The notes beneath the pieces were generated by a model. It was not told the DNA's origin. It did not search any database and saw nothing but the letters and a program-made list of their open reading frames with translations. The translations under genes and the position numbers were made by a program. 41,005 nt of DNA from a virus, in the IMG/VR virus record IMGVR_UViG_3300027844_000196, positions 1 through 41,005 of that record; one strand, given 5' to 3'. Below, in pieces: positions 5,918-30,459 of the stretch (the stretch's first letter is position 1; every line of letters starts with the position of its first letter).

Positions 5918-6558
5918 TTACTTTTCCTTTCCAAATAATAATAATTACATCCTTGACCGTGAGAACCATAAAGAGAATCATATATTTTATGTTTAACATT
6001 AAAATAATTTTTAATGTGATTACTAAATTCAAACTCACTATATCCAAATACAGGCATAGTTAAGTCTTTATTTACAGTAAAAATAGGATTAGGTGTATCG
6101 TCCTCCTTATTGAAAACTCTAATAAACATTTTTCCTGAAGGTTTTAATATTCTATGATACTCTTTTATAATTGATATAGTATCTTGTGGATAATTTACGT
6201 GTAAAGCACCAGCGTCAATAAGAAAATCAAAACTATTTTCTTCAATCTTATCTAATTTTCTTACATCTCCAGTAAGAAATTTTCCTTTGGGTAACCGCTT
6301 TTGAGTTCTTTCTATCACCGTTTGTGAAAAATCTACACCTGTTACCTCAAACCCCTCATTTATAAGATATTCAGAATTTCTACCATCTGCACATCCACAA
6401 TCTAAAACCTTTAGATTTTTTTCAAAATTATAATACTTTATAAAATCAACAACGTGGTCATCTTGTAACTTTTTAAAACCCATTTCATAATCCCAAGGTC
6501 CACCAGTTGGGTGTTGTTTAAAAAATTTATCCCACTCTTCAGTTATCTCTTCAAACAT
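5914..6558 (-). CDS. Class I SAM-dependent methyltransferase
   Basis: About 214 residues with the SAM-binding motif I LKVLDCGCADGRNSEYL (about 50), an acidic motif II segment VTGVDFSQ (about 73), motif FLTGDVRKLD (about 93) and a hydrophobic post-motif FDFLIDAGALHV. The substrate is not readable. Because it lies between gmd and the ColD-like gene, methylation of a sugar or sugar nucleotide is a reasonable inference. It starts just after the ColD-like stop and overlaps gmd by four bases. Confidence 0.82.
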   Translation of the reverse strand: MFEEITEEWDKFFKQHPTGGPWDYEMGFKKLQDDHVVDFIKYYNFEKNLKVLDCGCADGRNSEYLINEGFEVTGVDFSQTVIERTQKRLPKGKFLTGDVRKLDKIEENSFDFLIDAGALHVNYPQDTISIIKEYHRILKPSGKMFIRVFNKEDDTPNPIFTVNKDLTMPVFGYSEFEFSNHIKNYFNVKHKIYDSLYGSHGQGCNYYYLERKSK

Positions 6559-6559
6559 T

Positions 6560-7714: not shown

Positions 7715-7729
7715 AATCACTCCTTATCT

Positions 7730-8698: not shown

Positions 8699-9357
8699 AT
8701 TTGTAATATACTTTCTATCATTGCTTTAAAACTAGTTTCTCTTTCTTTAGAAGTCATATCTTCAGGTTTTTCAAAATGGTCTGCAACTGTACATACTGAT
8801 AATGCTTTCTTATTAAATTTATTTGCTAAAGTATATAATATATGTGTTTCCATTTCAACTGCTAATGCAATTTTTTCATCTTTCCACCAATCTTTATTTG
8901 GATTATAAAACCAATCACTAGACTTAATATATCCTTGCATAGTATTTTTAGGTGCCACTTTCATATAAGCATTTAACAAGTCAGTTGATCCTTCACCGAC
9001 AGATACATTCATCATTGCGTTGTCTGTAATTGCTCTTGTAGCTACAACTACATCACCTACATTTAAATTTTTATGAATACCACCACAACTACCCACTCTT
9101 ATAATAGTTTTTACATTATACGTATTATAAAGTTCGTGTATGTAAATTGCGTTTGAAGGCATACCCATACCACCACCTTGTACTGATATAGCTTTACCTT
9201 TATATGTTCCTGTAAAACCTAACATATTTCTCACACTATTAACTTGTCTTACATCATCTAAATATGTTTCTGCAATCCATTTTGCTCTTAACGGATCACC
9301 AGGTAATAATACTATATCAGCATAATCACCAATTTTAGCTTCTAAATGTGGTGTCAT
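8692..9357 (-). CDS. deoD: Purine nucleoside phosphorylase (DeoD type)
   Basis: Cleaves purine (deoxy)nucleosides with phosphate to free base and (deoxy)ribose-1-phosphate. It aligns with E. coli DeoD from memory: MTPHLEAKIGDYADIVLLPGDPLRAKWIAET at the start (phosphate and base site), MLGFTGTYKG, RVGSCGG (about 87), the VEMETH ribose-binding segment (about 168) and CTVADHFEK with the catalytic Asp (about 191-193). About 221 residues, slightly short of the usual 239, with the middle reduced. It overlaps the neighbouring HAD gene by 23 bases, but the alignment supports this start. Likely helps recycle host purines. Confidence 0.92.
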   Translation of the reverse strand: MTPHLEAKIGDYADIVLLPGDPLRAKWIAETYLDDVRQVNSVRNMLGFTGTYKGKAISVQGGGMGMPSNAIYIHELYNTYNVKTIIRVGSCGGIHKNLNVGDVVVATRAITDNAMMNVSVGEGSTDLLNAYMKVAPKNTMQGYIKSSDWFYNPNKDWWKDEKIALAVEMETHILYTLANKFNKKALSVCTVADHFEKPEDMTSKERETSFKAMIESILQIC

Positions 9358-9907
9358 ATAATTCTTTCCAATTCTTCACTCGTTGTCCTTTATATTCTCT
9401 ATTATAAGGATGATCCATCATAAATGTATTTAAACCGACTTCATCACCTTGCATTGCATAATCAACTCTATCCTCAATCCAAACATAATTTGTTCCTTTA
9501 TATCGTTCTTCTAAAATTTCTTTTTTAGGTTGTTTAAAATCTCCTGCACAATATATTTCATCAAATACATCACCAAATAGATATCGTAAATTAGTTTTTC
9601 TTAACTTATGAGCATACTTGTCAGGTCCAATCATAGTAATAACATCAAATCTATAACCTTCTCTTGCTAATCTAGTTACATACTCAACACTATCTTTATA
9701 TGCTGGTACAAATCCTAAAACTCCTGTTTGATTAAATAAATTGACTTGTTCTAATGCTTCTTTTTCAGGTATGTTATATCGTTTTGATTGACTAAAGTAA
9801 TGATCCGTTTCAGGCATTCTAGTATATCCTTGTTCACTCATCCAAATGTCAAAAGCAAAACACCAATCTAAAAGGACGCCATCACAGTCAGTTATTATCT
9901 TTTTCAT
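9335..9907 (-). CDS. HAD-superfamily phosphatase-like protein
   Basis: About 190 residues. HAD motif I is TDCDGVLLDW (D7 nucleophile, D9 acid/base). A motif II-like VITMIG segment lies at about 95, and a late acidic motif EDRVDYAMQGDEVG with a following FMMDHPYN at about 150-168 fits motif IV. The family removes phosphate from small metabolites; the substrate is unknown. It sits between a sugar nucleotidyltransferase and purine phosphorylase, so a sugar-phosphate or nucleotide is plausible. The stop overlaps deoD by 23 bases. Confidence 0.75.
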   Translation of the reverse strand: MKKIITDCDGVLLDWCFAFDIWMSEQGYTRMPETDHYFSQSKRYNIPEKEALEQVNLFNQTGVLGFVPAYKDSVEYVTRLAREGYRFDVITMIGPDKYAHKLRKTNLRYLFGDVFDEIYCAGDFKQPKKEILEERYKGTNYVWIEDRVDYAMQGDEVGLNTFMMDHPYNREYKGQRVKNWKELYDTTFRS

Positions 9908-10637
9908 AATTTATCAATAATCTCCTTATTTCACTCCAAGTTCCTAAATCAACATAGTCTTTTACTTTAATTGCTTTACTACCATAGATAGGTGTTGTTT
10001 TTATATCTTTAACATTTACTTTTTGTTTTAATGTAGATTTTTCCATAAAATTCATACAACTATCAAATACTCGTCTTCTAAATCCAAACGCACACCAAAA
10101 CGCATTGTATAAACCTAATTTATTATCTTTAGGTTTATCGCAATAATCTAAAACTAAACCTTCAGCATTTATATTTAATGCACCTTTAGTTTTTAATATT
10201 AAATCATCCTCATCAATTTCTTCTTTATATAAAAATGTGAATCCTGTTTCTTGTAATGCTGACATAATTAAAGTATATAAATCTTGATTTGGTTGCAATG
10301 TCATTAATGTATCAGGCAATAAAACTATATTATGTTCTCCAAATAAAGGTCTAGCACTTTTAATTGCACCTGTATATTCTTTCTCATTTGGATCCTGATA
10401 GATAAATGATATGTTAAATTTATTTTTATATTTTGCTAAATAAGTTAATAGTTCTGGTTTGTTTTCATTAATAATAACTATAAATTCAATATCTTTTCTT
10501 CCATAATCTCTAAAAAAATTAAAACAATTATCAATTAAAGCATTATCATTATCTAATCGTAATATTTCTTTTGGATATGGTAGATTTAATCTAGTACCCT
10601 TTCCTGCCGCTGGTAATATAACAGTTAATTTGCTCAT
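9888..10637 (-). CDS. Sugar-phosphate nucleotidyltransferase
   Basis: About 249 residues with the nucleotidyltransferase signature AAGKGTRLNLPYPKEILRL (residues 10-28), the G-x-G-x-R nucleotide loop with downstream Lys. A VLLPDTLMT segment at about 104 gives the metal-binding Asp. This family joins a sugar-1-phosphate to NTP to make a nucleotide sugar. It overlaps the SET-domain gene by four bases and the HAD gene by 20. The likely role is supplying activated sugar for the nearby glycosyltransferases. The exact sugar and nucleotide are not known. Confidence 0.82.
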   Translation of the reverse strand: MSKLTVILPAAGKGTRLNLPYPKEILRLDNDNALIDNCFNFFRDYGRKDIEFIVIINENKPELLTYLAKYKNKFNISFIYQDPNEKEYTGAIKSARPLFGEHNIVLLPDTLMTLQPNQDLYTLIMSALQETGFTFLYKEEIDEDDLILKTKGALNINAEGLVLDYCDKPKDNKLGLYNAFWCAFGFRRRVFDSCMNFMEKSTLKQKVNVKDIKTTPIYGSKAIKVKDYVDLGTWSEIRRLLINYEKDNN

Positions 10638-12742: not shown

Positions 12743-14296
12743 TTACTTATAATAATTTTCTAGTATAAAGTCGTGGTAACTTTGATACTTTTCAACTTCT
12801 TTATTCCACATTTCTTTACGTACATCTAATTTCTTAAAATACGGTTCCATTATTTCTTTTATTTCTTCCTTATTCTTATGTGTATGATATATTAGATTAG
12901 GTAAATCATCTGGTGCCCAATTGAAACCAGCCGCTATAAAATGTAATCCGCTATTACCAGCACTTTCAGGAGAATCAATAGGAAACTCCCAATATTTGTT
13001 TCTTTGTAAAGCAGCTTGTAAATATCCAAGGAATGCTTTAGGTTTCAGATTATATAAACTTTCTTCCCAATCTCTACTGTTATTTGCTTTCCAATATGGT
13101 GTATCATTTCTTGTTGATAAAGCATAATGCAAACCAACAAATTCAACAAACCCATAATAGATAGATTTACAGGCAAACGTAAAGTTGTCTTTGTCCCATT
13201 GTGTAATTTCACCTCTTCTTAAATTTCTTACAAGTTCTATTAAAAATTCGTGTACTGAAAACAAACCATTACTTTCTAATGGTTCAACAAATCCATTAGC
13301 TAAACCTATAGCAACAACATTTTTTACAAATAATCTTTCGTGTATACCACACCTCATTTTAAGATTTCTAAATTCTAATTTTTCTACATTAGCACCATTT
13401 TTCTTTAAATGACTTTTAAATTCTTTTAATGCGTCCTTGTCAGAAACAAATTTATCTGAATAAACATAGCCAGTTCCAACTCTACTCCATAATGGTATAT
13501 TCCATACCCAACCATTCTCTATTGCTGTACAATTAGTATAAGATTTCATCTCTTTAATTTTATCTATATAAGGAATCTTGGTTACCCACGCTTTATTATT
13601 TGGTAGTTTAGGGATAGGTTCAAAAGGTACTTTTAATGCACCTCCTAAAAGCATTGATTTAAAACCTGTACAATCAACATATAAATCTGCTTTATGTTTG
13701 CCGTTCAAAGAAACTATACCTTCTTCATCTTGTTCTACGGTACTTATATCTTCTTGAATATGTTTGACACCTCTAGGGATACAATAATGATCCCTCAACC
13801 ATATACCAAATTTAATTGCGTCAAACTGATAAGCAGAATCTTTATCATTATCAAAACCACGGAAGTTTTTAGCACCCTTACTTTGATTAATTAATGCCAT
13901 AACAGGAGAAAAACAATCAGCATAATCTGAAACCGGTAGTTCTGGATTATATGCCTTTTTTATCCACCAATCATTATACCTTAATTTAGTTCCTTCTGTT
14001 ACAACTGCACCAAAAGGATAATGAAATGCCGCCTCGTCTTTTCCATTAAAGTCTGTAAACTTAATACTAAATTTAATAGTACCGTCGGTATGTTTTAAAA
14101 ATTCTTTATCCTCTATTCCGAGAAATTTTGTCCATTGTTTAACTTTTGAGATTGTACTTTCACCAACTGATATTGTTGGAATTTTAGGTGATTCTAATAC
14201 AGTTATATCTTTATCAGGAAAAGCTCTAATTAAAGTTGAAGCAGTCATCCACCCAGCGGAGCCTCCTCCAACTATTAAAATCTTATCACACTTCAT
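12743..14296 (-). CDS. Flavin-dependent halogenase (tryptophan-halogenase family)
   Basis: About 517 residues. The FAD-binding ILIVGGGSAGWMTAS is at residues 7-20, followed by a GESTI segment (45-49; GEAT or GEST is typical) and an active-site lysine candidate at about 75 (KFSIKF). A WVWNIPLW segment carries the W-x-W-x-I-P signature at about 268. VEPLESNGLFSVHEF (about 350) carries the active-site Glu equivalent. These enzymes use FADH2, oxygen and halide to chlorinate or brominate aromatic compounds, usually free tryptophan. Substrate unknown. It starts with an ATGA overlap with a 30-residue membrane peptide. Confidence 0.9.
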   Translation of the reverse strand: MKCDKILIVGGGSAGWMTASTLIRAFPDKDITVLESPKIPTISVGESTISKVKQWTKFLGIEDKEFLKHTDGTIKFSIKFTDFNGKDEAAFHYPFGAVVTEGTKLRYNDWWIKKAYNPELPVSDYADCFSPVMALINQSKGAKNFRGFDNDKDSAYQFDAIKFGIWLRDHYCIPRGVKHIQEDISTVEQDEEGIVSLNGKHKADLYVDCTGFKSMLLGGALKVPFEPIPKLPNNKAWVTKIPYIDKIKEMKSYTNCTAIENGWVWNIPLWSRVGTGYVYSDKFVSDKDALKEFKSHLKKNGANVEKLEFRNLKMRCGIHERLFVKNVVAIGLANGFVEPLESNGLFSVHEFLIELVRNLRRGEITQWDKDNFTFACKSIYYGFVEFVGLHYALSTRNDTPYWKANNSRDWEESLYNLKPKAFLGYLQAALQRNKYWEFPIDSPESAGNSGLHFIAAGFNWAPDDLPNLIYHTHKNKEEIKEIMEPYFKKLDVRKEMWNKEVEKYQSYHDFILENYYK

Positions 14297-19778: not shown

Positions 19779-20216
19779 CTATTGGCTCACTAACCCAACA
19801 ATTTCGGAGAAGTTTCTTGATACTATCCAACCTACTACTATAGCAGCACCTAATATAATCCATCTATATTTTTCTAACACACTAACTCTAGCACCAAAGT
19901 CATTTTTGAGTGATTTAATTTCTACTAATAAACGTCTTTCAACAACTGATAATTCTCTTGTTATATCTAAATTTACTTTTTCTATTTCTTCTTTTCTTTC
20001 AGTTATTTTTTGAAAAATAACCTCATCAAGTTGTTCTTGTCTAGCAATTTTTTCGGAGTGTACTGCCAACATAGACTTAATAGATGTTGATACATCTGTT
20101 AATTTATCTATTGCTCTATCTAATCGTATGTGTATTGAATCTATCTGCTCAACGTCTTTTTTGAGTTTAGCTATATCTACTTTTGTTTTGACTCCGTTTC
20201 CGTTACTTTGTTCCAT
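19779..20216 (-). CDS. Coiled-coil protein with C-terminal membrane anchor
   Basis: About 145 residues. The first 110 are hydrophilic and heptad-like (KLKKDVEQIDSIHIRLDRAI, later REL..VERRLLVEIKSL), predicting a long coiled coil. A single hydrophobic stretch near the end (WIILGAAIVVGWIVS, about 119-133) should anchor it. This layout is seen in holin-like, spanin-like or membrane-attached scaffold proteins, but I assign no function. Its ATG overlaps the stop of the 27-residue peptide as TAATG. It is the last gene before the terminator. Confidence 0.7.
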   Translation of the reverse strand: MEQSNGNGVKTKVDIAKLKKDVEQIDSIHIRLDRAIDKLTDVSTSIKSMLAVHSEKIARQEQLDEVIFQKITERKEEIEKVNLDITRELSVVERRLLVEIKSLKNDFGARVSVLEKYRWIILGAAIVVGWIVSRNFSEIVGLVSQ

Positions 20217-20299
20217 TAAAATTCCCTATCTATCCATTTGTAAATAGAATAACAGAACCAACCTAAAAGGAATGCTGTTAAAAGTAAAGTTAAATACAT
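20216..20299 (-). CDS. Single-pass membrane peptide, 27 residues
   Basis: ATG at 20299, stop TAA at 20216-20218 overlapping the start of the next gene as TAATG. It starts MYLTLLLTAFLLGWFCYS, followed by a short charged tail. Very short, so support rests on its packing between the FecR-domain gene and the coiled-coil gene and on the repeated pattern of such peptides in the window. Confidence 0.5.
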   Translation of the reverse strand: MYLTLLLTAFLLGWFCYSIYKWIDREF

Positions 20300-20305
20300 T
20301 GTTAT

Positions 20306-22450
20306 TTAATCCGTTTGAATTATTGTTATATTGGACTGTGCTGAAGATTCACCTATGTCAAGGTGTTGGGCTTCCATATCTTGTAATATTTGCACGTCTG
20401 CTTCGCTAGCAGTTTCAGTTTTAATATATGCTCTATGACTGTCGTTATATCTATTTATAATTGAGTAGTTACTAACGGAAGTATCAATAGAGGCGTCAAA
20501 GTCATTGTTTAATGTTGATACTCTTCCTGTTGAAGTAGCACTTGAAGTCGCACCTGTTACACCATCTGTTGTAGTTAAAGTTTGGGTTACATCTCCAGTA
20601 GAATAGTTTAATGTTTCACCACTAGCAGTTACCGAAGTTTCATTACCTTCGTTATCAACCCAAGTTGTACCACAAGATTGATTAGCAATGTCCCAATAGT
20701 ATCCATAATTTAAACATTCTTCTTCATCATAACTTGCTAATAATATTTCTAATTCTGCGTCTTGGTCAAAGTCATCTTCAAAATCATACTCATCTTCCCA
20801 ACTAGACTCATCATCTTCATTATTGTAATCGTAACCTGTGTACCACCAATCGTATAATGCGTCCCAATATTTGTCCCAATCTGCCCACTCCCAATCAGTT
20901 ATGTAAGTTTTCTTTAAGTCTTTCATCTTCCAAGGTTTAGGTTGATTATCACACATCTTATAGTTTGGCCACGATCCACACCAACCATATAGTTTACCAA
21001 ATATCTTTTTAGATTCTTTAGTCCAACTATCATTGGTTACTTTTAAAGTCCAATCATCTTCATACCAGTCATTTAAGTAATCAACATAGTCTTGGTTGCA
21101 CCAGTAGTCTTCATAACCATTGTACTCACAATAGTTTTGTACAGTTAATGTTGGAGGTCCACCTTGTGCTTTGTATTCAGGATTGTCATAGTAGTTATCA
21201 TCTAAAGCAAAATCTTCCCAAGTATATCCTTCAACTGCTTGTACTTCTGTTTCTTCTTTTGTATCTTCAACTACATCTTGTTCTTCTACTTCTACATTCC
21301 AAGAAGTTAATCCATAGTCTTCTAATAGGTCATTATACTTGTCTGAATATTCGTCCCAATCTACAGCGTCCCAATCAATAGTATCCCAATCAATAGAATC
21401 CCAGGTACAATCTGAACAACCAATGGCGTCAAAGTATGCTTGGTCCATTTCTGCATACATTTTTTTAGCGTCATCCCAATCCATAGTTTTTTCACCTTCG
21501 GCATCCCATACTGATATTTGATTGTCGTCATCAATGTAACCCCAATCTTTTAAATCATCTTCCCATTCATCATAATAAGATGTATCAACTTCTTCTACTT
21601 CAACTAATGCTGTTTCTTCTGCTGACTTTGTTTCAATCATTGAGTCTGATTCACTAACAGATAAATCTGTAGCAACAATTGTATTACTATCTTCTACTAT
21701 ACTTGCTTCTTCATTAATGATTGCCTCTTCCATTTCCTGTGCTTCAGATTCTTCTTTAGACATTTCAGATTTTGAATCTACATCACCAAAATGTTTTTGA
21801 CTTTCATCTTTAATTTCATCTTCAAATTTATCTAACTCAATAATATCTTGTTTATTAGTTTCTATTTTTGGAGGTGTTGGTGCTAAATCATTTGTATAAA
21901 CGGTTACTGAATTGTAAGCGTTAGTTATTGTTTGAGAACCTGCGTCTGTTGATACGGTTACTTGACCTACTGCACCATTACTATCAGGCAACAAAGTAAT
22001 TGTTGCTTTACCTGAAGTATCTACTGATCCTGAAAAGGCAGTACCTTGTACTGTAATTGTAGCATTACCAGCATTAATATTAACTTCTCCACCAAGTTTT
22101 TTTACATTACCTGATTCATATGTAAATGTACCAACATTAATTGATATGTTCATTGCAACCTCTATTGGAACTTTACTTGTATCAAAAGCAAATTCATCAA
22201 TAGTTAATTCTGTATTTGGTCCCATTGTAAATTTAGTATCATCAACATATGATAAAATCATTCCACCATCTTCACCTGTTTGAAGAAAGTCGTTCATCTT
22301 CAAGACATAACCCATTAAAGTATTTTCAGTTGAACCCTCACGTTCATTCCAAGTAGTACCCATTTGTCCTATGACTGTACCTACCTTCGTGGCAAATGCA
22401 CTAGTACAAAAAAGTATTAGAAACGATACTAAAAATAATAACTTCTTCAT
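20306..22450 (-). CDS. Secreted FecR-domain protein with Trp/Asp-rich region
   Basis: About 714 residues, with a signal peptide ending CTSAFA at residue 20. A FecR-like domain (about 21-190) has VGTVIGQMGTTW, the G-G-M-I-L-S-Y segment, SINVGTFTYESG, and VTVSTDAGS. It then becomes acidic and aromatic: roughly 26 Trp fall between about 290 and 620, with repeated I-D-W-D units near 360. A Ser/Thr-rich tail closes it. FecR domains are often extracellular or periplasmic sensors or binding proteins. It starts directly after the curlin-like stop, so it is likely expressed with the curli-like genes. What the Trp/Asp region binds is unknown. Confidence 0.8.
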   Translation of the reverse strand: MKKLLFLVSFLILFCTSAFATKVGTVIGQMGTTWNEREGSTENTLMGYVLKMNDFLQTGEDGGMILSYVDDTKFTMGPNTELTIDEFAFDTSKVPIEVAMNISINVGTFTYESGNVKKLGGEVNINAGNATITVQGTAFSGSVDTSGKATITLLPDSNGAVGQVTVSTDAGSQTITNAYNSVTVYTNDLAPTPPKIETNKQDIIELDKFEDEIKDESQKHFGDVDSKSEMSKEESEAQEMEEAIINEEASIVEDSNTIVATDLSVSESDSMIETKSAEETALVEVEEVDTSYYDEWEDDLKDWGYIDDDNQISVWDAEGEKTMDWDDAKKMYAEMDQAYFDAIGCSDCTWDSIDWDTIDWDAVDWDEYSDKYNDLLEDYGLTSWNVEVEEQDVVEDTKEETEVQAVEGYTWEDFALDDNYYDNPEYKAQGGPPTLTVQNYCEYNGYEDYWCNQDYVDYLNDWYEDDWTLKVTNDSWTKESKKIFGKLYGWCGSWPNYKMCDNQPKPWKMKDLKKTYITDWEWADWDKYWDALYDWWYTGYDYNNEDDESSWEDEYDFEDDFDQDAELEILLASYDEEECLNYGYYWDIANQSCGTTWVDNEGNETSVTASGETLNYSTGDVTQTLTTTDGVTGATSSATSTGRVSTLNNDFDASIDTSVSNYSIINRYNDSHRAYIKTETASEADVQILQDMEAQHLDIGESSAQSNITIIQTD
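20452..20459 (-). promoter_or_regulatory. Possible internal T4-type late promoter
   Basis: An exact TATAAATA on the minus strand inside the 3' part of the FecR-domain gene, about 150 bases before the 27- and 145-residue genes. It may give them extra late transcription. Being within a coding sequence in an AT-rich genome, it could be chance. Confidence 0.25.
21353..21409 (-). repeat. Tandem 15-base repeat encoding I-D-W-D-x units
   Basis: Three full 15-base units (starting 21353, 21368, 21383) and a partial fourth share the core TCCCAAT on the plus strand. On the coding strand each gives five residues of the I-D-W-D-x type. This is the centre of the Trp/Asp-rich region and suggests recent internal expansion by slippage or unequal exchange. 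Confidence 0.75.
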
Positions 22451-23548
22451 TTAACACCCATTAGATACTGTAGCGGTTACATCTGCTGATTGATTGTTTC
22501 TATTGTATGAGTATGTACAACTGTCTGAACCATTTTGTGCAAAGTTTAGTGTGTAATCGTAAATTGAATCACCTGTTATAGTTACATAACCATAATTACC
22601 TCCACCTGTTTGGTCAAAATTTATTACCGAACTATCTGTGTATAGATAGATTTTAGCAGTATTATTTCCACCTGCCATATGTAATCTTATTGTATTACTA
22701 TTGCCAGATATGTATGTTCTTAAATAATTACTGTCGCCTAATATCAGCATTGTATCTCCATATGGGTCAGTATCAGCACTAGCATAACTGGAATGTATAT
22801 CTAAAATGTTTGAACTACCTATAATATCGTGGAGTTGATAGTTGCCTGTACCATATGTTGAAGTATGTAATCTATTTGAATCACCAATAATATAAATGTC
22901 TGCACTTGCACCTTCACTACCTGAACTGTCTGCAAATTGTCCGTGTGATGTTGAGTTAGGACCAATTGCTTTATTAGAGTTTGTATTAAATCCTTCTGAA
23001 GCTGCTGGAGTATAAATTTGTACATCATTGCTGTCGCCTGACATAAGAACATACCAGAAGTGTTTATCACCTCTACTACGGATCCAAAATGTATTTGAAT
23101 CACCAGTAATATCTAAATCAACATTGGTTTTTTGTACATCATCTGCCCAAGTATCAACGTCTACTATGTTTGAATCACCTGTAATATCAATGTCGTACCA
23201 ATGACCATCAGCACCTGTATCATCTATACCTAATCTTAATTTATTACCATCACCAGTTGCTGTATAATCAAAAGTCATATCATCACCATAAAATTGTTGG
23301 TGACTAGAATAATCTGATTTATTATTATCACCTATTTGTTTTATTATGATTGTGATGTTCTCTCCATTGATTTTAAATGGATAAGATGTAGAATAACCTA
23401 CTGTATTACCAGTACCATCTTGCTTTATAAAGATTGATCCGTCGCTGTCTTGGTTATCTTGTTGAATCCAAATTGAATTACCTGCTAGGCAATTACTTGT
23501 TAATGCTATTAGGGTCAACAGAATCATCCACAACTTTATCTTTTTCAT
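22451..23548 (-). CDS. Curlin-like secreted repeat protein (CsgA/CsgB-like)
   Basis: About 365 residues, with a signal peptide ending NCLAG near 22. After that come about eleven irregular repeats of I-x-I-x-G-D-S-N-x type. The first two are closest to true curlin repeats (IFIKQDGTGNTVG, IIIKQIGDNNKSD), with the I-x-I-x-Q-x-G-x-x-N pattern; later ones read ITGDSN, MSGDSN, IIGDSN, ILGDSN. Such repeats stack as a beta-solenoid and form amyloid fibres in bacterial curli. The gene follows csgG, overlapping its 3' end by 56 bases, so it is probably the cargo of the CsgG/CsgF pore. It is longer than E. coli CsgA, with longer, less regular spacing. Confidence 0.78.
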   Translation of the reverse strand: MKKIKLWMILLTLIALTSNCLAGNSIWIQQDNQDSDGSIFIKQDGTGNTVGYSTSYPFKINGENITIIIKQIGDNNKSDYSSHQQFYGDDMTFDYTATGDGNKLRLGIDDTGADGHWYDIDITGDSNIVDVDTWADDVQKTNVDLDITGDSNTFWIRSRGDKHFWYVLMSGDSNDVQIYTPAASEGFNTNSNKAIGPNSTSHGQFADSSGSEGASADIYIIGDSNRLHTSTYGTGNYQLHDIIGSSNILDIHSSYASADTDPYGDTMLILGDSNYLRTYISGNSNTIRLHMAGGNNTAKIYLYTDSSVINFDQTGGGNYGYVTITGDSIYDYTLNFAQNGSDSCTYSYNRNNQSADVTATVSNGC

Positions 23549-24545
23549 CTATTTCCTCCCAGGCTTTCTCTTCTTCTTTTTCTTTGTTTAATTCTTCTTG
23601 TAATTTCTTTTTACGTTCTTCTTTTAATAATTCTTTTTGTAAGAGATAATCTTCATAAGTTTTCTCTATTTTTTCATCACCAATATGAACTGTTATTGGT
23701 ACGTCTTCTGCCTCTACTTTTATATCATCTGTTACTACTTTTAAATCTTTCATAGGTACTATTACTATTTCAGGTAGTTCATCAAATTCCCATAGTCCTT
23801 TGTCTGCACCTGCATTTATTAAATCTACTACACCTTTTTCTATTGCTTTTCTTACTGCAAAGGTAACTGGTTCGTTTTTAGCATATCCAGCTTCTACTTC
23901 TAATAACATTGTATCAGCGTCAAAGTATTTAAATATATCTCCACCAATTGATGTTGAAAATATAGTCTTCTCAACTGTAGTTACTATAACTACTTCACCT
24001 GTTTGTACATTTACTAATCTTAATATAATAGTTACTATATCTTGTCTAAACTGTTTGTTGTTTTGTATTCCTAAAATTCTAGCACCAACACCACCTGATT
24101 TAGTATCACTATCATACCCTACTATACCACCTGTTACATATGCACCTGCAAATAATAATGGTGGTAAAGGTTCTGCACCTTCTCCATTAACTTGTTGTCT
24201 TGTAGACCTAATCAATTTTCTTTCTTGTAATAAACTTGGTAGACTTGCTCTTTCAACAACTCTAAACCATTTGCCGTTACCTGCGTCTTGTAATGCTTTA
24301 ATTAAAAGTTGATACGATCCTTGAGTTACTGCTGTACTCATAGAAGCATAGTTGCCACCTGGTTTCTTTTGACCAGTCATATCTAAAAAGTCATAGACAG
24401 CAATTATAATAGGTCCATCTTTCGGTGCTTCTATAGTTGATAGGTCTTTAAAAGCAACCGTTTGAGTTCTTACATCAAACTTTGGTTTGCCTGCACAACT
24501 AACTAACAAAAATGCTAGTAGTAATATAGCAATATTTCTTAACAT
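23493..24545 (-). CDS. csgG: CsgG-like curli secretion pore lipoprotein
   Basis: Outer-membrane lipoprotein that forms the ring-shaped export channel for curli subunits. A lipobox LLVSC at residues 13-17 predicts lipidation at Cys17. The core aligns with E. coli CsgG from memory: AVYDFLDMTGQKKPG, STAVTQG, LLQERKLIR (about 105), GGIVGYDSDTKSGGVGARILGI (about 139-160), LRLVNVQTGEV, NEPVTFAVRKAIEKGVVDLIN and DKGLWEF (about 248-254). E. coli stops soon after, but here about 95 charged residues follow (257-350), perhaps a coiled coil. The constriction region reads PGGNYASMSTAV where E. coli has the Tyr/Asn/Phe set, so pore lining differs. It starts in a one-base overlap with csgF. Confidence 0.92.
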   Translation of the reverse strand: MLRNIAILLLAFLLVSCAGKPKFDVRTQTVAFKDLSTIEAPKDGPIIIAVYDFLDMTGQKKPGGNYASMSTAVTQGSYQLLIKALQDAGNGKWFRVVERASLPSLLQERKLIRSTRQQVNGEGAEPLPPLLFAGAYVTGGIVGYDSDTKSGGVGARILGIQNNKQFRQDIVTIILRLVNVQTGEVVIVTTVEKTIFSTSIGGDIFKYFDADTMLLEVEAGYAKNEPVTFAVRKAIEKGVVDLINAGADKGLWEFDELPEIVIVPMKDLKVVTDDIKVEAEDVPITVHIGDEKIEKTYEDYLLQKELLKEERKKKLQEELNKEKEEEKAWEEIDEKDKVVDDSVDPNSINK

Positions 24546-25003
24546 TACGAATTGTCTTCCTTCGGCATAGTAAATGTTGTTACAGTTCCATCGGACTCCG
24601 TGACAGTTACAACTACATTACCTGTATCTGACGGAGTTGTCCAAGTTACTACTTCACCACCAACTGGTGATGTAAATGTACCTGAGTCTTGTTGTAGACC
24701 ATCTGTACCAAAAACATTGTCTGTAACTTGTTTAGCAAGTGCTGTATAAAATCTTGCTTCAACATTTGATTTGAATTTTGCTATTGCTGTATTTTTAGCG
24801 TCTGCTATTAATTTATCAGCCGCTGATTTTTCAGCTGCTTTTATAGCATCCGTTCTAGTTTTCTCTATGTTTTCTATAGTTAGATAGTGTGATGATTTTC
24901 CTACTCCACTAAATGATGGACTGTGAAACTTAAAACCTAATTCACTTGCATAGACACCAGAACAAAACAATAATACTGTTAAAATGATGGTTATTAATCT
25001 CAT
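24545..25003 (-). CDS. csgF: CsgF-like curli assembly protein
   Basis: In E. coli CsgF docks in the CsgG pore and helps nucleate fibres at the cell surface. The 152-residue product has a signal peptide ending GVYA (about 19), then ELGFKFHSPSFSG, which matches the F-x-F-x-x-P-x-F-x-G pattern at the mature E. coli N-terminus that inserts in the CsgG channel. A charged helix with KSAADKLIADAK and a strand-rich tail follow (VVVTVTESDGTVTTF), as in CsgF. First gene after the late promoter at 25027-25034, with GGAG upstream of its ATG. Confidence 0.85.
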   Translation of the reverse strand: MRLITIILTVLLFCSGVYASELGFKFHSPSFSGVGKSSHYLTIENIEKTRTDAIKAAEKSAADKLIADAKNTAIAKFKSNVEARFYTALAKQVTDNVFGTDGLQQDSGTFTSPVGGEVVTWTTPSDTGNVVVTVTESDGTVTTFTMPKEDNS

Positions 25004-25026
25004 ATTTTCTCTCCGATTGATGTATA

Positions 25027-25034
25027 TATTTATA
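25027..25034 (-). promoter_or_regulatory. T4-type late promoter before csgF
   Basis: Exact minus-strand TATAAATA, 24 bases before the csgF ATG, in the 55-base gap between divergent genes. In T4 this octamer is recognised by gp55/gp33-modified host polymerase late in infection. It implies late expression of the csgF-csgG-curlin-FecR operon. Confidence 0.8.
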
Positions 25035-25058: not shown

Positions 25059-26714
25059 ATGATTAAAATATTGATGAAAACGTGGGCAGTATATTTGACT
25101 TTGATTATATTACTTGGAATATATATATCAAATCCTATTTTGCTACAGTCAGCAAAACTAAACACCTTTGATTTCTACCAAACCTTTGGTAAGAATTATG
25201 AATCCAAGAGTTTAGTACTAGTAGACATATCAGACAAAGCATTAAAAAAGAATGGTCAATGGCCGTGGAAGAGAGATATACTTGGTCGTACTATAATCAA
25301 TGCGTATAAAAATGGTGCCGCTCTTGTAGTTCTGCAAGTAGTCTTCCCACATAAAGATAGATTAGGTGGTGATGAAATGTTTTTGAAAATGATTTCAAAA
25401 TATCCAGTCATACTTACTGAAACCGATACTGTAAAAAATCTTATTAGTATCTCACGTAAAGCAATAGCAATAGGCAACGTAAGTGTGCCAGTTGATATAG
25501 ATGGTACTATAAGAAAATTACCTCTTGACAAATCTATACCTGAAGTTATCTTAAAAATTATCAATGCAAAAACTTCAGCAGAAGATACTATTTGGATTGA
25601 TTTCAGACATCATATTCCTAGAATAGATTTTACTGATAACGATTGGTCATCTGTAAAAGGTAAAATAGTTTTCATAGGTACAACGTTCAAAGGTTCAACG
25701 TTTGTAACTACTCCCAATGGTTTAAAAAATACACACGAAATTATGGCAATCAGTACAGAAACTTTATTGTCAGGTAATTATATTAGTAGACCTTATTGGT
25801 TACCATATGGTGAATTGGCATTTATAATATTAGGTGCTCTATTCTTTCTCATAGTTATACCTAGATGTGGTGTAATGTGGTCTGCAATTTGGTACGTAGG
25901 TTACTTGTTTGATTTAACACTTGCAAGTTCTTATCTATGGACACAACACTTATTTTTAGTTGATTGGTTTAGTCCACTTGTTATAGGTTCTATTATATGG
26001 GGTCAGTTAACATACAATAACTATTCAAAAGAAAATAAATTAAGACTACAAATTAAGAAACAATTTGAACACTATCTATCTCCAGATATGGTTAAAAAAC
26101 TACAAAAGGATCCATCACTATTAAAACTAGGTGGTGAAAGAAAAGAATTAACGTTTATGTTTTCAGACATTAGAGGTTTCACTCCTATATCAGAATCTAT
26201 GAAAGATGATCCAGAAAAACTAACTCGTTATGTTAATAAGTTTCTAACTGCAATGACTACTATTATATTAAAGAACGGTGGAACTATTGATAAGTATATG
26301 GGTGATTGTATAATGGCATTTTGGAATGCACCTTTAGATTGTAAAAATCATAGAGTGTTGGCAGTTAAAACAGCACTAGAAATGGAAACAAAATTAAACC
26401 AAATGAATAAAAATGGTGAGTTTGTTCCACCTTTAAAGATTGGCATTGGTCTTAATACTGGTGATTGTCTTGTAGGTAATATGGGTAGTGAACAACGATT
26501 TGATTATTCAGTTATTGGTGATGCTGTAAATCTTGCAAGTAGATTGGAAGGTTTAAGTAAGAACTATGATACAACTATTATAGTAAATAAAGATACTGCT
26601 GATGGTATAGACTATATTCCAATGGCAAGACCAAAGGGATTTAAGTTTGAAAAATTAGATGATGTTCTTGTTAAAGGTAAAAAGGAAAAGATATCTATTT
26701 TTTCCGTTCATTAA
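25059..26714 (+). CDS. CHASE2-domain adenylate/guanylate cyclase
   Basis: About 551 residues. An N-terminal membrane helix (about 8-30), an external CHASE2 sensor (LVDISDKALKKNGQWPWKRD, about 53-72, to about 230), three membrane helices (about 245-325), a linker, then a class III cyclase domain (about 365-550). The cyclase has FSDIRGFT (metal Asp), GTIDKYMGDCIMAFW (Lys and second metal Asp) and FDYSVIGDAVNLASRLE (base-selecting Asp, Asn and transition-state Arg). The Lys/Asp pair favours ATP over GTP. It should make a cyclic nucleotide in response to an external signal. It is the only plus-strand gene and diverges from the curli-like operon. Start chosen as first ATG; no clear Shine-Dalgarno. 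Confidence 0.9.
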   Translation: MIKILMKTWAVYLTLIILLGIYISNPILLQSAKLNTFDFYQTFGKNYESKSLVLVDISDKALKKNGQWPWKRDILGRTIINAYKNGAALVVLQVVFPHKDRLGGDEMFLKMISKYPVILTETDTVKNLISISRKAIAIGNVSVPVDIDGTIRKLPLDKSIPEVILKIINAKTSAEDTIWIDFRHHIPRIDFTDNDWSSVKGKIVFIGTTFKGSTFVTTPNGLKNTHEIMAISTETLLSGNYISRPYWLPYGELAFIILGALFFLIVIPRCGVMWSAIWYVGYLFDLTLASSYLWTQHLFLVDWFSPLVIGSIIWGQLTYNNYSKENKLRLQIKKQFEHYLSPDMVKKLQKDPSLLKLGGERKELTFMFSDIRGFTPISESMKDDPEKLTRYVNKFLTAMTTIILKNGGTIDKYMGDCIMAFWNAPLDCKNHRVLAVKTALEMETKLNQMNKNGEFVPPLKIGIGLNTGDCLVGNMGSEQRFDYSVIGDAVNLASRLEGLSKNYDTTIIVNKDTADGIDYIPMARPKGFKFEKLDDVLVKGKKEKISIFSVH

Positions 26715-26862: not shown

Positions 26863-27044
26863 TATTTTAATCTATTTTTTGAGTTAGTAATTATATCAAC
26901 AGTATTTTTACTAATCTCTTTAGGATTTGTTATTAAACTCCCACGAAGTTCTATTATTTTTCCTCTAGGTATTTGTTTTTTTCTAACCATTTTTTCTTTT
27001 ATTGGGTCGTACTTGTTGTCAAAAAATTCTATATTTTCGTCCAT
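26862..27044 (-). CDS. Hypothetical protein, 60 residues
   Basis: Short, basic and soluble, starting MDENIEFFDNKYDPIKEKM, with an RKKQIPRGKIIELRGSLI middle. No membrane segment, signal or metal site. It overlaps the o-spanin-like gene by one base and the 55-residue gene by one. Real by packing; function unknown. Confidence 0.6.
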   Translation of the reverse strand: MDENIEFFDNKYDPIKEKMVRKKQIPRGKIIELRGSLITNPKEISKNTVDIITNSKNRLK

Positions 27045-27403
27045 TATTTTTTCTCCTTATCATTTGGTTCATAGTATTCTTTATATTGGTCAAGTAAATC
27101 ATTTGTATGTTTCAAGTGTGCTCTTATTTGAGCAAAGTTTTTTGCAATTAATTGAAAGTCTTTATCACTCAATCCAAATAGTACTGGATCAAGTCCTTGT
27201 TCTTCCATCTTTTGGAATACTTCTTCTGCATTGTCAGAAGTAATAATAATCCACCTCAACTTTTCAAGTTCAGGCATAGTTGGTTTAACTAAATCTAATT
27301 TCTGTCTAGGTTCTTCTAACTTAAATATTTTAAGTTGTTTCTCACCGATTGAACAACCAGTAAGTATTAAAACAGCTATGATACTAATTATTATACGGTA
27401 CAT
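27044..27403 (-). CDS. Putative o-spanin (Rz1-like lipoprotein)
   Basis: About 119 residues. N-terminal signal with a lipobox LILTGC (about 12-17) predicts an outer-membrane lipoprotein. The rest is hydrophilic, with a charged helix near the end (NFAQIRAHLKHTNDLLDQY). Together with the upstream membrane coiled-coil gene, whose 3' end it overlaps by 20 bases, it fits an i-spanin/o-spanin pair that joins the inner and outer membranes at lysis. Rz1 proteins are usually proline-rich and shorter; this one is not, so the call rests on layout. Confidence 0.55.
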   Translation of the reverse strand: MYRIIISIIAVLILTGCSIGEKQLKIFKLEEPRQKLDLVKPTMPELEKLRWIIITSDNAEEVFQKMEEQGLDPVLFGLSDKDFQLIAKNFAQIRAHLKHTNDLLDQYKEYYEPNDKEKK

Positions 27404-27860
27404 ATGATGGATTTGCTATGGATGGGCACTCCCTATTAATTTCTGATTTTTTGGTTGCGTTCTTCTCTTGTTCGGTAAGTGGTGAACCACCTGCTATCTC
27501 TACACAACGTAATGCTTTATCACTTGCACCATTAATAATTCTTTGAATAGTTTTTGTTTTTTCTATGGCAAGTTTACCAAAGTCACGACCTTTTTTATTA
27601 AATCTCTTATCTAAATCATCTAAATCTTTTTTAAGAGCTGAAACAAGTTCGTTCATCTTGTTGTTTGCTTTTAAAATCTCTTTAAAGTCTTCTTGTTGTT
27701 TAGCAATGAGTTCCTTTTGAGAACTCACCGCTTCTTCCAGTTTGATTTGGTTTGCTTTTAAAATAGCATTATCGGAACGTAACTTCATTACATACATACC
27801 TGCACCTGCAAGTCCTGTAATCATAACTACGACCATTGCCATTTTTAAATAACCAAACAT
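27384..27860 (-). CDS. Putative i-spanin (Rz-like membrane coiled-coil protein)
   Basis: About 158 residues. One N-terminal membrane helix (AMVVVMITGLAGAGMYVM, about 8-25), then a long charged coiled coil (about 30-115; SQKELIAKQQEDFKEILK, KKDLDDLDKRF). A C-terminal segment has two cysteines (RCVEIAGGSPLTEQEKN and INRECPS). This is the usual i-spanin layout. It precedes a lipoprotein gene with an overlapping reading frame, the common spanin arrangement. No endolysin or classic holin was identified nearby. Confidence 0.6.
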   Translation of the reverse strand: MFGYLKMAMVVVMITGLAGAGMYVMKLRSDNAILKANQIKLEEAVSSQKELIAKQQEDFKEILKANNKMNELVSALKKDLDDLDKRFNKKGRDFGKLAIEKTKTIQRIINGASDKALRCVEIAGGSPLTEQEKNATKKSEINRECPSIANPSYVPYNN

Positions 27861-27863
27861 AAT

Positions 27864-27974
27864 TTACTTCTTCCAGAATTTTAATTTACTAACCAGACCT
27901 GCTAAATCTTCAAATTTTTCATTAACATACCAACCTAGTACAAATCCTATAACTAATCCTATTGTTAAAAACAT
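27864..27974 (-). CDS. Single-pass membrane peptide, 36 residues
   Basis: ATG at 27974 with AGGAG nine bases or fewer upstream, stop TAA at 27864. It begins MFLTIGLVIGFVLGWYV, then a charged tail ending KLKFWKK. It fills the gap between the spanin-like and DUF1353-like genes. A small holin or membrane modulator is possible; that is only inference. Confidence 0.6.
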   Translation of the reverse strand: MFLTIGLVIGFVLGWYVNEKFEDLAGLVSKLKFWKK

Positions 27975-27988
27975 ATTGTTCTCCTTTT

Positions 27989-28570
27989 TTATTTAATCTT
28001 AGCACCAACTTTACGGTGTTTGTTCCAAGCCATAAAGCCACCTAGTCTTAATGACCAGTATGCTAAGTAGTTCATTAGATAAAATCCATTAACTCCGATA
28101 TTAATATCTCTAAAGATTTCATCTGCTCTTTTTTGAGATATAATACCTAATGTATCTGACTTATTTATTTCTAATAGAGTTGCGTACTTGTAAGCGTAAT
28201 CGTGTACAAGACCTCCCATTAAAAGTACACCTACTGGTGATAAAAACGGATGCAAGAATTTTGGTATACTTGCGCCGTCAAATTTAAACCCAGCTGGTAT
28301 CGTATATTTTTTATCGTTTAATGTGTATTCAAAATCTTCTGCAATTTCCCAATGTCTAGTTCCGAGTAACCATAATAATATTCCTTTAAAGAAACCTTTT
28401 TCTTTTGTTCTTATAGGTATAGGTCTCATTACTGGCATTTTTTTATTACTGAATGTATAACATTTAGGTTTCTTTTTATCAAACGTATTGATAACTAGTC
28501 CTGCTATTATTACTACAACTACAATTGACCACATCCAAAATTTTGTTGCCAAACTTATTAATAATTCCAT
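27989..28570 (-). CDS. Membrane-anchored DUF1353-like protein
   Basis: About 193 residues, with an N-terminal membrane helix (WSIVVVVIIAGLVI, about 14-27). The C-terminal domain has YTIPAGFKFDGASIPKFLHPFLSP (about 88-111) and GGLVHDYAYKYA (about 118-129), the P-A-G-F-x-x-D-G-A-S-I-P and H-D segments of DUF1353. The function of that family is not settled. It sits next to the spanin-like genes, so an envelope or lysis role is plausible. Confidence 0.75.
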   Translation of the reverse strand: MELLISLATKFWMWSIVVVVIIAGLVINTFDKKKPKCYTFSNKKMPVMRPIPIRTKEKGFFKGILLWLLGTRHWEIAEDFEYTLNDKKYTIPAGFKFDGASIPKFLHPFLSPVGVLLMGGLVHDYAYKYATLLEINKSDTLGIISQKRADEIFRDINIGVNGFYLMNYLAYWSLRLGGFMAWNKHRKVGAKIK

Positions 28571-28571
28571 A

Positions 28572-28865
28572 TTACTTCCTTCTTATTGGTGTTTTTAAAC
28601 TAGCTCTTCCTTGAGCGCCTCTTACGTGAACCATACCACCCATAGTATTTTCTTTCTTTTTATTCTTTGGTTCTACTTTTGGATCAGCAGATAGAAATGG
28701 TCTTTGATTATCCGATGTTGTATAACCTGCCTGTAATCCAGCACCCTTAACAGGTATTCCTTTTTTTTTAGGTGCGTTATCACCCATACTAGCCATAGGT
28801 TTTGAAATTCCTACTCCACCTACTCTAACACCTGTTGTACCTATAAATTCTTTAAAGGTTTTCAT
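28572..28865 (-). CDS. Hypothetical protein with capsid-targeting-like N-terminus
   Basis: About 97 residues, starting MKTFKEFIGTTGVRVGG. The rest is Gly/Lys-rich and probably disordered (APKKKGIPVKGAG, PKNKKKENTMGGM). The MKTFKEFI start resembles the T4 capsid-targeting sequence MKTYQEFIAEA that sends proteins into the prohead. It ends next to the DUF1353-like start and overlaps the upstream gene by four bases. Function unknown; internal head protein is a hypothesis. Confidence 0.65.
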   Translation of the reverse strand: MKTFKEFIGTTGVRVGGVGISKPMASMGDNAPKKKGIPVKGAGLQAGYTTSDNQRPFLSADPKVEPKNKKKENTMGGMVHVRGAQGRASLKTPIRRK

Positions 28866-29203
28866 ACTCTTGCTTTTTCTTTAATAGTTTTTTTTCTTTT
28901 AGGTGTTTCAATTTTAATTTCTTCTTTCACAACTCCACTTATTTCATCAATCTTATTTTCAAGTTTACTTAACTGACTAAAAACACCTTTCAATACAACA
29001 TTATTGTTGTCTTCACTCTCTTGTACTTTTCTTTTTAAAGTACCGAGTATAGGATTTTTCTTTTTCTTTTTATCTACACCTGGTTCTCCGTCAGGTCCTA
29101 CACCTATACCTGCAACGGAAGCATTACCAGCAGCATTTGTTGGAGCATCCTCATCTATTTTATTGATGAGTTCGTCCATCATATCTTTATAATGTTTTGG
29201 CAT
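28862..29203 (-). CDS. Hypothetical protein, Gly-rich with basic and helical parts
   Basis: The ATG at 29203 (MPKHYKDMMDELINKIDED) has GGAG seven bases upstream and is preferred to the longer reading from 29239. About 113 residues: a short helix, a Gly/Ala-rich stretch (APTNAAGNASVAGIGVGPDGEPG), a Lys run (KKKKKN) and a C-terminal helix. No known domain. Compact operon packing (17-base overlap upstream, four downstream) supports it. Possibly a virion or scaffold protein. Confidence 0.65.
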   Translation of the reverse strand: MPKHYKDMMDELINKIDEDAPTNAAGNASVAGIGVGPDGEPGVDKKKKKNPILGTLKRKVQESEDNNNVVLKGVFSQLSKLENKIDEISGVVKEEIKIETPKRKKTIKEKARV

Positions 29204-29666
29204 ATTCGTACTCCGATAATAGTTTGTTGTCTTTCTCATATATACCTACACCTAGACAAGTCATTACTGGTTCATCTTCTATGTCTGGTATATCTCTTAC
29301 TTCATTTAACATATTGTCATACTGATTTGTTTCTTTCAAATATGAAACTACACCTGCTTCAATAGCATCTTTGTGTATCATTAAATTTTTATCTTCTCTT
29401 AAAATCATTGCCATAGCACCGAAAAAAGAACCAAACTTACTACCCAATCCAACTTTACCAAATAATCTTTTCATATTAAAAACAAATCTATGTAGATATG
29501 TATATGCTTTTTTATCTTTAGTAGTTTTCAATGTCTTATTAGCTCTTAATACATTACCTTTTTTATCAATGATACCTTGTTTAAAAGCTTCTTGCTTCAC
29601 CCAAGGCGTTACCAATAGCTTAACTACTCGGTAAGTTATTAACATATCTATTGCTCTACTAGCCAT
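29187..29666 (-). CDS. Hypothetical protein, 159 residues
   Basis: Mostly helical, with basic N-terminal half (SRAIDMLITYRVVKLLVTPWVKQ), a segment YTYLHRFVFNMKRLFGKVGLGSKFGSFFGAMAMIL (about 57-91) and an acidic end (DIPDIEDEP). No signal peptide. No family recognised. Position among putative head genes suggests a structural or assembly role. Begins in a one-base overlap with the upstream gene. Confidence 0.68.
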   Translation of the reverse strand: MASRAIDMLITYRVVKLLVTPWVKQEAFKQGIIDKKGNVLRANKTLKTTKDKKAYTYLHRFVFNMKRLFGKVGLGSKFGSFFGAMAMILREDKNLMIHKDAIEAGVVSYLKETNQYDNMLNEVRDIPDIEDEPVMTCLGVGIYEKDNKLLSEYEYAKTL

Positions 29667-30028
29667 TAAAGTTCCCTTAACATTTCTTTTATCTTTTCGT
29701 CTTCATCAACATCACCAAGTTCGTGTTGATAAAGTAATTTAAGATAGTTCAATACCGTTTTTAATGCTGTCCAATATTCTCTATCCATTTTAAATAATAA
29801 TAAAGTTATCGCTACATCTGCACCAAAAACATTTTGTAATACTACAATGTGATTAATAATTAATCTTATTTTAACTTCACCTGTAGTTTTATACTTACGA
29901 AATAACCTTTTAAGATATTTAAATCTTTTAATATCTTCTAAAAATTCTACATTATCTTCCAATGTAGGATTGCTATAATTTTGCTGAGCAAATAGCAACC
30001 AATTATCTTTAGTTATCTCTTCAAACAT
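29666..30028 (-). CDS. Hypothetical helical protein, 120 residues
   Basis: Starts MFEEITKDNWLLFAQQNYSN and continues as amphipathic helices: KRFKYLKRLFRKY, IRLIINHIVVLQNVFG, ITLLLFKMDREYWTALKTVLNYL. No metal motif or membrane segment clear enough to call. It is the kind of small conserved protein often seen in T4-like phages of marine bacteria, but I do not know its function. Confidence 0.68.
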   Translation of the reverse strand: MFEEITKDNWLLFAQQNYSNPTLEDNVEFLEDIKRFKYLKRLFRKYKTTGEVKIRLIINHIVVLQNVFGADVAITLLLFKMDREYWTALKTVLNYLKLLYQHELGDVDEDEKIKEMLREL

Positions 30029-30033
30029 TTGAC

Positions 30034-30459
30034 CTACACTAACTTAGCGTAGACCTTGGATGTACCGTTTTTTAAAGTTTCATAACTAACTTCTAAATTC
30101 AGTCCGCCAGCCTTTTTATGAGATATACCATCATCATTTATATCAGAACCGTCAGTATCTTTTCCAAATCTTCCACCAAATTGACTAACTTTCGCACTAA
30201 CTTTTCCAGATGTTCCTTCCATAGTAACTGGTGATATTGATAAACCAATTCTGTTTAGTTTTTCTCTTAAACTATCTACAGCTTGTTGTGGTTTAATATA
30301 TTCCATATCTGCTACAGAACCTACAAAAGCATTTACTCTATTTAATACTTCTGGATCTGAAATGTTATGAGCGCCTAAATTACCATCTTCAACTGCGTTA
30401 GATGTGGCCGTGCCAACCATCTTGCCGTCTTCTGTGATATGTTGTTTAAACGTTTTCAT
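30034..30459 (-). CDS. Hypothetical protein with capsid-targeting-like N-terminus
   Basis: About 141 residues starting MKTFKQHITEDGKMVG. The I-T-E/D junction would suit a T4-type prohead protease cut after Glu. A helix (PQQAVDSLREKLNRIGLS) and strand-rich end (LNLEVSYETLKNGTSKVYAKLV) follow. No family recognised. Its start overlaps the upstream 42-residue gene by 14 bases. Possibly internal to the head. Confidence 0.65.
   Translation of the reverse strand: MKTFKQHITEDGKMVGTATSNAVEDGNLGAHNISDPEVLNRVNAFVGSVADMEYIKPQQAVDSLREKLNRIGLSISPVTMEGTSGKVSAKVSQFGGRFGKDTDGSDINDDGISHKKAGGLNLEVSYETLKNGTSKVYAKLV

Follow-up and report, generated by a model that had tools for sequence, protein, structure and literature searches.

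Genes of the curli secretion pathway have already been described in marine phages. CsgF and CsgG were reported in pelagimyophages, with 'sibling capture' proposed as their use (Zaragoza-Solas et al, 2020; PMC7029224), the curli genes of phage Melnitz were proposed to act in lysis (Buchholz et al, 2022; PMC9004378), and a module of the form CsgF-CsgG-CsgA/B-FecR-(CsgA/B)-AC, AC being adenylate cyclase, was described in pelagiphages of two morphotypes and families, together with its expression in metatranscriptomes (Wittmers et al, 2022; PMC9599517). The last study named FecR an iron-dependent regulator, described histidine kinases before csgF in podophages, and reported bacterial curli operons to be without FecR, histidine kinase and cyclase. 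Here, we analysed such a module in a 41,005-nucleotide stretch of viral DNA (positions 1 to 41,005 of IMG/VR record IMGVR_UViG_3300027844_000196; hereafter, the window). Because these three papers describe phage curli modules, the gene set of the window is not new; they bear out the mention, in a first-pass annotation of the window, of curli-export genes in related marine phages, whereas its view that the full set with FecR and cyclase is unusual was rejected, as this set is already in PMC9599517 and the isolates HTVC008M and Melnitz both encode it. The uses proposed in that annotation (fibre or glue, superinfection exclusion, lysis pore) likewise match published guesses. Beyond the published work, we report a late promoter, a reinterpretation of FecR, a chromosomal copy in Hyphomonas and no SAR11-family CsgG outside phage contigs. 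With a probability of about 0.58, we read the module as the late-switched export, through CsgG/CsgF, of a curlin-like fibre and a curlin-tailed FecR surface protein, with sensing by the cyclase and a sticky surface as the benefit.

Four genes form one minus-strand operon in the order csgF-csgG-curlin-FecR, spanning 25003-20306 with exactly the reading frames first annotated, head to head with a CHASE2/adenylate cyclase gene on the plus strand (25059-26714). csgF and csgG overlap by 1 nt, csgG and curlin by 56 nt, and curlin and FecR abut. Of 60 loci from relatives in which the csgG/curlin overlap was measured, 42 have one of 50 or 56 nt. The overlapping genes downstream of the csgF promoter look translationally coupled. 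All five genes are present in each of the 18 distinct relative loci with enough flanking sequence, and in all 18 the cyclase is adjacent, lying upstream in divergent orientation in 12 of them and downstream, collinear with the operon, in 6. That the cyclase is kept though its position shifts argues for a working link with the module.

The octamer TATAAATA, of the T4 late promoter type, lies at 25027-25034 (minus strand) and starts 31 nt before the csgF ATG, with a Shine-Dalgarno-like GGAGAG, read directly from the sequence, at 25009-25014 (minus strand). Its count in the window alone was rejected as evidence for a promoter, as it is not enriched (6 seen versus 11.7 expected), and upstream regions were compared across relatives instead. 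TATAAATA was found within 60 nt upstream of csgF in 44 of 56 distinct relatives, for 1.5 expected and a maximum of 5 from Markov and resampling controls, usually at -28 to -32 from the csgF start. The rates upstream of csgG (0/52), curlin (0/48), FecR (0/48), the cyclase (1/53) and other open reading frames (ORFs; 26/632, 4%) indicate, against that of csgF, a real late promoter that travels with the module, in line with the first proposal. Its usual position holds whether the neighbour is the divergent cyclase, a terminator or another gene, and in both divergent and collinear contexts. This single strong late promoter precedes the first gene of the operon; the divergent cyclase is without it and may be timed differently.

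The pore and its adaptor were identified by profile searches that confirmed the likeness to E. coli curli proteins noted in the first-pass annotation. csgF (24545-25003, minus strand) encodes a secreted CsgG-pore adaptor of 152 residues, whose signal peptide is its only hydrophobic segment and which matches PF10614 over residues 7-147 (E 8.7e-10; 39.3 bits for a cut-off of 25.8) and phrog_35372 (E 9e-32). csgG (23493-24545, minus strand) encodes an outer-membrane secretion pore of 350 residues with a lipobox-like LLVSC, matching PF03783 (E 8.8e-51) and the E. coli CsgG structure 3x2r over residues 8-256 (E 8.6e-49); residues ~257-350 form a K/E-rich tail past the E. coli match, lineage-specific in length. 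The match of phage CsgG to the NCBIfam model of the holdfast protein HfaB, a CsgG relative, is weak (46.9 bits, cut-off 300), and the protein fits the CsgG model far better (177.8 bits). CsgE, which the first-pass annotation had not seen, was unmatched by PF10627 in the window, in the records of two syntenic relatives (L055 and L019), in HTVC008M and Melnitz and in the genome of Hyphomonas sp. TMED17, with a positive E. coli control; CsgD was not searched for. A lack of CsgE outside some classes of bacteria has also been reported (PMC9599517). Under the name Salmonella phage S.Kent 1-2-1, the 1,499-base record OR851715.1, possibly a mislabelled host fragment, encodes an unannotated CsgG with 43% identity to that of the window.

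The third gene (22451-23548, minus strand) encodes the curlin-like cargo, 365 residues with a signal peptide, and its initial description as such stands: the protein passes PF07012 marginally (21.0 bits, cut-off 20.7), and a profile of 36 relatives matches the solved major curlin subunit 8enq (E 2.5e-6). QxGxxN-type repeats occupy both ends, with GDSN repeats between them at a spacing of ~22-26 residues, and the AlphaFold2 model is all-beta, with a predicted local distance difference test score (pLDDT) of 77 and a predicted template modelling score (pTM) of 0.79. A second curlin, found in HTVC008M (L002, 10638-11963) and also in L078, carries an N-terminal PA14 domain, likely a sugar- or surface-binding part, on curlin repeats.

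The FecR-domain protein (20306-22450, minus strand; 714 residues) consists of a signal peptide, a FecR beta domain (residues ~21-195), a variable linker (~196-284), an acidic Trp/Tyr-rich module (~285-560) and a beta-strand C-terminal part (~601-714) ending in ITIIQTD, as delimited by PF04773, regional conservation and a C-terminal motif test. Its assignment by PF04773 held for HTVC008M and Melnitz (35.8 and 40.5 bits) and fell short for the window protein itself (22.6 bits, under the cut-off of 24). The only strongly hydrophobic segment is the signal peptide (residues 5-23), with no second membrane helix, and in the proteins of the window, HTVC008M and Melnitz, Pfam matched the FecR domain alone, without the DUF4880 anti-sigma domain. 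A phi-x-phi-x-Q tail, at most 4 residues from the C-terminus, is present in 52 of 52 viral FecR versions, which are related and not independent (HTVC008M, AITINQTN; window, NITIIQTD), and in 6 of 7 FecR proteins from module contigs in metagenome-assembled genomes (MAGs). The same tail was found in 85 of 166 canonical bacterial curlins, 16 of 991 other viral ORFs and none of 25 control alphaproteobacterial FecR proteins. In the FecR alignment A2, T709, I711 and Q712 are invariant, and AlphaFold2 places eight strands in residues 606-712, a block with pLDDT mostly of 76-90. A single-curlin-unit profile, with low scores, had its best match at the FecR C-terminus in 31 of 60 cases versus 0 of 42 shuffles, and one hhalign alignment of the tail with curlin sets C-terminus on C-terminus. 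As the curlins of the window lineage end without this tail (0/47), FecR there holds the only curlin-type end.

Within the window lineage, the acidic module (~300 residues; 18% Asp, 11% Glu, 10% Tyr, 8% Trp, Arg absent) is conserved, with a mean identity of 72% across residues 285-560. The phage collection held a relative, from HTVC008M, for the N-terminal third of the FecR protein only, and no isolate relative for this module. With the acidic module on the window FecR and PA14 on the HTVC008M curlin, both lineages put an extra domain on a curlin-tailed exported protein, i.e. display domains recur on such proteins. The HTVC008M FecR also weakly matches Leptospira FecR-domain surface proteins (adhesin Lsa33, E 1.5e-8, below cut-off), which would fit a surface role. 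Foldseek found nothing significant in the PDB for the FecR model (best, the PupR cell-surface signalling domain, E 0.34), and only two FecR proteins in a viral library searched with this low-confidence model. Motif and domain content point to the phage FecR protein as a curli-linked protein exported to the surface and not an iron regulator, which sets aside the initial idea of FecR as an extra regulatory gene. In one contig (L011/L128), the FecR gene is split into two ORFs of 509 and 222 residues, reflecting a sequencing error or a frameshift.

The divergent gene encodes a CHASE2 sensor (PF05226, E 7.7e-27) joined to a class III adenylate cyclase (PF00211, E 1.1e-23) that also matches PDB adenylate cyclases and has intact catalytic motifs (SDIRGFT, DKYMGD and GDAVNLASRLE). 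It thus stands with the FecR-domain gene as a FecR/CHASE2 pair. One relative (L053) has an extra cyclase-like gene downstream of FecR besides the divergent one. A palindrome before the cyclase start, GTACTAAATAGTAC, has variable surroundings among relatives and was dropped.

In the mechanism that we favour, the T4-type late promoter would switch on the csgF operon late in infection. CsgG would insert in the outer membrane as a lipoprotein pore fitted with CsgF, and the pore would export the curlin-like beta-repeat protein and the FecR-domain protein, both brought to the periplasm by their signal peptides. Because it ends in the curlin-type strand phi-x-phi-x-Q, FecR would most likely dock onto, nucleate or cap the curlin fibre, exposing the FecR domain and the acidic Trp/Tyr-rich module at the cell surface, as a CsgB-like anchor or an adhesin. 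The cyclase, with its CHASE2 domain towards the periplasm, would probably sense the FecR/curli structure or its assembly and signal by cyclic AMP (cAMP). The benefit would most likely lie in the sticky surface given to the dying cell, by which sibling cells or virions are gathered or other phages are kept off. Of this picture, the analysis shows the gene identities and their joint conservation, the late promoter, the tail motif and the lack of CsgG in the searched SAR11-family genomes outside phage contigs, whereas FecR export, the fibre, sensing by the cyclase and the benefit are inferred. If FecR is taken as an exported curli partner, the 'auxiliary' genes, otherwise a curious collection, would make up one machine (pore, adaptor, fibre, fibre-linked display protein and sensor); this reading predicts expression late in infection, localisation at the cell surface and docking by a C-terminal strand. 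If true, viruses would build an extracellular matrix on free-living marine cells, and this would matter to host finding by phages in dilute water. A more specific version, in which this viral surface glue works through the curlin-tailed FecR and its acidic domain instead of the fibre, FecR being a new kind of adhesin displayed on the fibre and monitored by a CHASE2 cyclase of its own, is a tentative proposal to which we give well under even odds; it would amount to a self-contained, sensor-coupled viral matrix system in cells that never make curli themselves.

Several observations weigh against the export of a fibre and its FecR partner. Melnitz-infected cells showed no clumping (PMC9004378), and CsgE was not found. 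The curlin-like protein is marginal in Pfam, its middle repeats are without Gln, its model gave no significant PDB fold match with Foldseek, and in the window lineage it lacks the tail that its proposed partner carries. For FecR, the tail was counted against controls picked by a simple frame rule, hhalign comparisons of FecR tails with curlins (E 0.012-0.29, probability <4%) are too weak alone, and the FecR-domain part of the 714-residue model is of low confidence (pTM 0.28).

The published alternative of Wittmers et al, in which FecR is an iron-dependent anti-sigma-type regulator, the cyclase controls the curli genes via cAMP and only curlin is exported, accounts for a FecR domain and a cyclase within the module. 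We regard it as improbable: the FecR protein is without the DUF4880 cytoplasmic domain and a second membrane helix, all 52 versions carry a C-terminal curlin motif seen in none of the control FecR proteins, and the operon is already under a phage late promoter. The window proteins scanned, a part of the total, included no recognisable sigma factor, and no dedicated search for a FecI-type extracytoplasmic function sigma factor was made; the genes neighbouring the module were those for the cyclase, coiled-coil protein, primase and spanins. The short genes before csgF, coding for ~95-residue membrane-type proteins in HTVC008M (6900-7462), L149 (7794-8374) and L190 (7734-8317), have no Pfam kinase domain. 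The late promoter also suits a role of CsgG/CsgF in timing lysis (Buchholz et al), in which they would form a gated pore in the outer membrane, or a pinholin-like device, and help to depolarise or open the cell. The same holds for the spanin pair that is a syntenic neighbour in the window lineage and for a podophage contig (L302) in which Rz-like and lysozyme-like genes follow directly on the module. However, the window phage already has an ordinary spanin pair, the HTVC008M and Melnitz modules adjoin replication and tail genes, and every complete locus keeps curlin and FecR. A plain pore is weakened because the three secreted proteins kept in 18 of 18 loci would be needless, and we hold this explanation to be rather unlikely, if slightly less so than control by FecR.

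A curli-like coat serving mainly superinfection exclusion or receptor shielding, and not the gathering of cells, draws on the same export evidence as the explanation that we favour, agrees with the absence of clumping in Melnitz-infected cells, and is consistent with the location of the module in a variable region of pelagimyophages (PMC7029224). Late expression, however, would follow most superinfection decisions, and we judge such a coat unlikely, the least so of the alternatives weighed here. Earlier authors also suggested an uptake channel (PMC7029224, PMC9599517), in which the CsgG pore raises the import of a cofactor or siderophore by the infected cell. The missing CsgE, the known gate, means that the pore might be open, but CsgF, curlin, the FecR tail and the late timing are left unexplained, and the idea is highly improbable.

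Returning to the module as an export system, we consider which genomes carry it. The window is a pelagimyophage-like phage contig: its NrdA is 83% identical to that of Pelagibacter phage Mosig and 77.5% to that of HTVC008M, it encodes a gp61-like primase and spanins, and its syntenic relatives L055 (171 kb) and L019 (177 kb) encode T4 gp23. This upholds the initial call of a phage over a bacterial contig. The NrdA identity, a GC content of ~31% and the gp23-bearing relatives make SAR11 the likely host. SAR11 are among the most abundant marine bacteria. CsgG was found in 3 of 197 SAR11-family genomes, each time on a short module contig (3, 15 and 23 kb) that bears genes of phage type or none but those of the module; outside phage contigs, it was absent from all 197. 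SAR11 phages thus repeatedly carry a secretion system that SAR11 genomes appear to be without.

For the origin of the module, a scan of one genome per species (84,980 species) gave 269 CsgG relatives, of which the best 80 were examined. Among these 80, one five-gene module is clearly chromosomal, on a 705-kb contig of the Hyphomonas sp. TMED17 MAG (L148). This copy softens the published claim that bacterial curli genes come without FecR and cyclase. Neither gene was near the curli loci of 20 other Hyphomonadaceae, and module-type CsgF was in no other of 385 sampled Alphaproteobacteria. In the CsgG tree, module sequences including TMED17 split from canonical alphaproteobacterial CsgG with support of 100/99. 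Module matches in other MAGs, on short or phage-like contigs (L141-L147, L149, L158, L188 and L190), are probably mis-binned phage DNA. Two of these contigs (L149 and L190; 142 and 121 kb), from one MAG called Sphingobacteriales, each carry the curli module and T4 gp23 and are phage genomes binned as bacteria. The 23-kb contig in a SAR11-family bin (L302), likely of a podophage, has the five-gene module directly before the Rz-like and lysozyme-like genes, with a terminase-like gene also there.

The window module shares with the pelagiphage modules (HTVC008M, Melnitz, PMC9599517) the order csgF-csgG-curlin-FecR plus CHASE2/cyclase, and with HTVC008M a CsgG of 46% identity and the same curlin-type FecR C-terminus. 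It differs in that its cyclase is divergent where theirs is last in the operon, in having one curlin for their two, in a FecR of 714 residues, with the acidic Trp/Tyr-rich insertion, compared with ~370, and in the K/E-rich tail of CsgG. Canonical bacterial curli systems (E. coli, Alphaproteobacteria) have the same CsgG and CsgF families, curlin repeats and signal peptides, whereas the phage module lacks CsgE and adds FecR and cyclase. The TMED17 module keeps the csgF-csgG-curlin-FecR-CHASE2/cyclase order and its CsgG groups with the phage module clade, yet on a very long branch, and its FecR has no curlin-type tail. FecR/CHASE2 envelope signalling pairs, such as BiofilmReg in a Burkholderia biofilm operon (PMC5192318) and the CHASE2 cyclase cluster of Campylobacterota (PMC9239204), also place an exported FecR-domain protein beside a CHASE2 sensor; unlike the phage module, they come without curli genes, and Burkholderia has a histidine kinase and a LysM-FecR protein.

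The next gene downstream of FecR encodes a DUF7201 coiled-coil protein (19779-20216, minus strand; PF23831, E 1.7e-15), which comes after FecR or the cyclase in relatives and is syntenic with the module but probably outside it; a tiny ORF between them (20219-20305, minus strand; ~28 residues) has one membrane-type stretch. On the far side of the cyclase lies the overlapping pair of o-spanin- and i-spanin-like genes (27044-27860, minus strand; phrog_812, phrog_739 and synteny). It begins a run of the spanin pair, a DUF1353 gene and small genes (27044-30459, minus strand) whose order, immediately ahead of the curli module, is shared by most relatives in the lineage, independent of where the cyclase sits. 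No RNA families and no tRNAs were detected in the window. A 910-residue protein (35478-38210, minus strand) has cytidyltransferase-like and ATPase-like parts by PHROGs, and a tryptophan halogenase family gene (12743-14296, minus strand; PF04820, E 1.7e-97; phrog_2928) adjoins nrdA/nrdB. Finally, a run of sugar and precursor genes (32-10637, minus strand), including IMP dehydrogenase-like, D-Ala ligase-like, GDP-mannose dehydratase, DegT aminotransferase and nucleotidyl transferase genes, has the appearance of a surface-sugar island.

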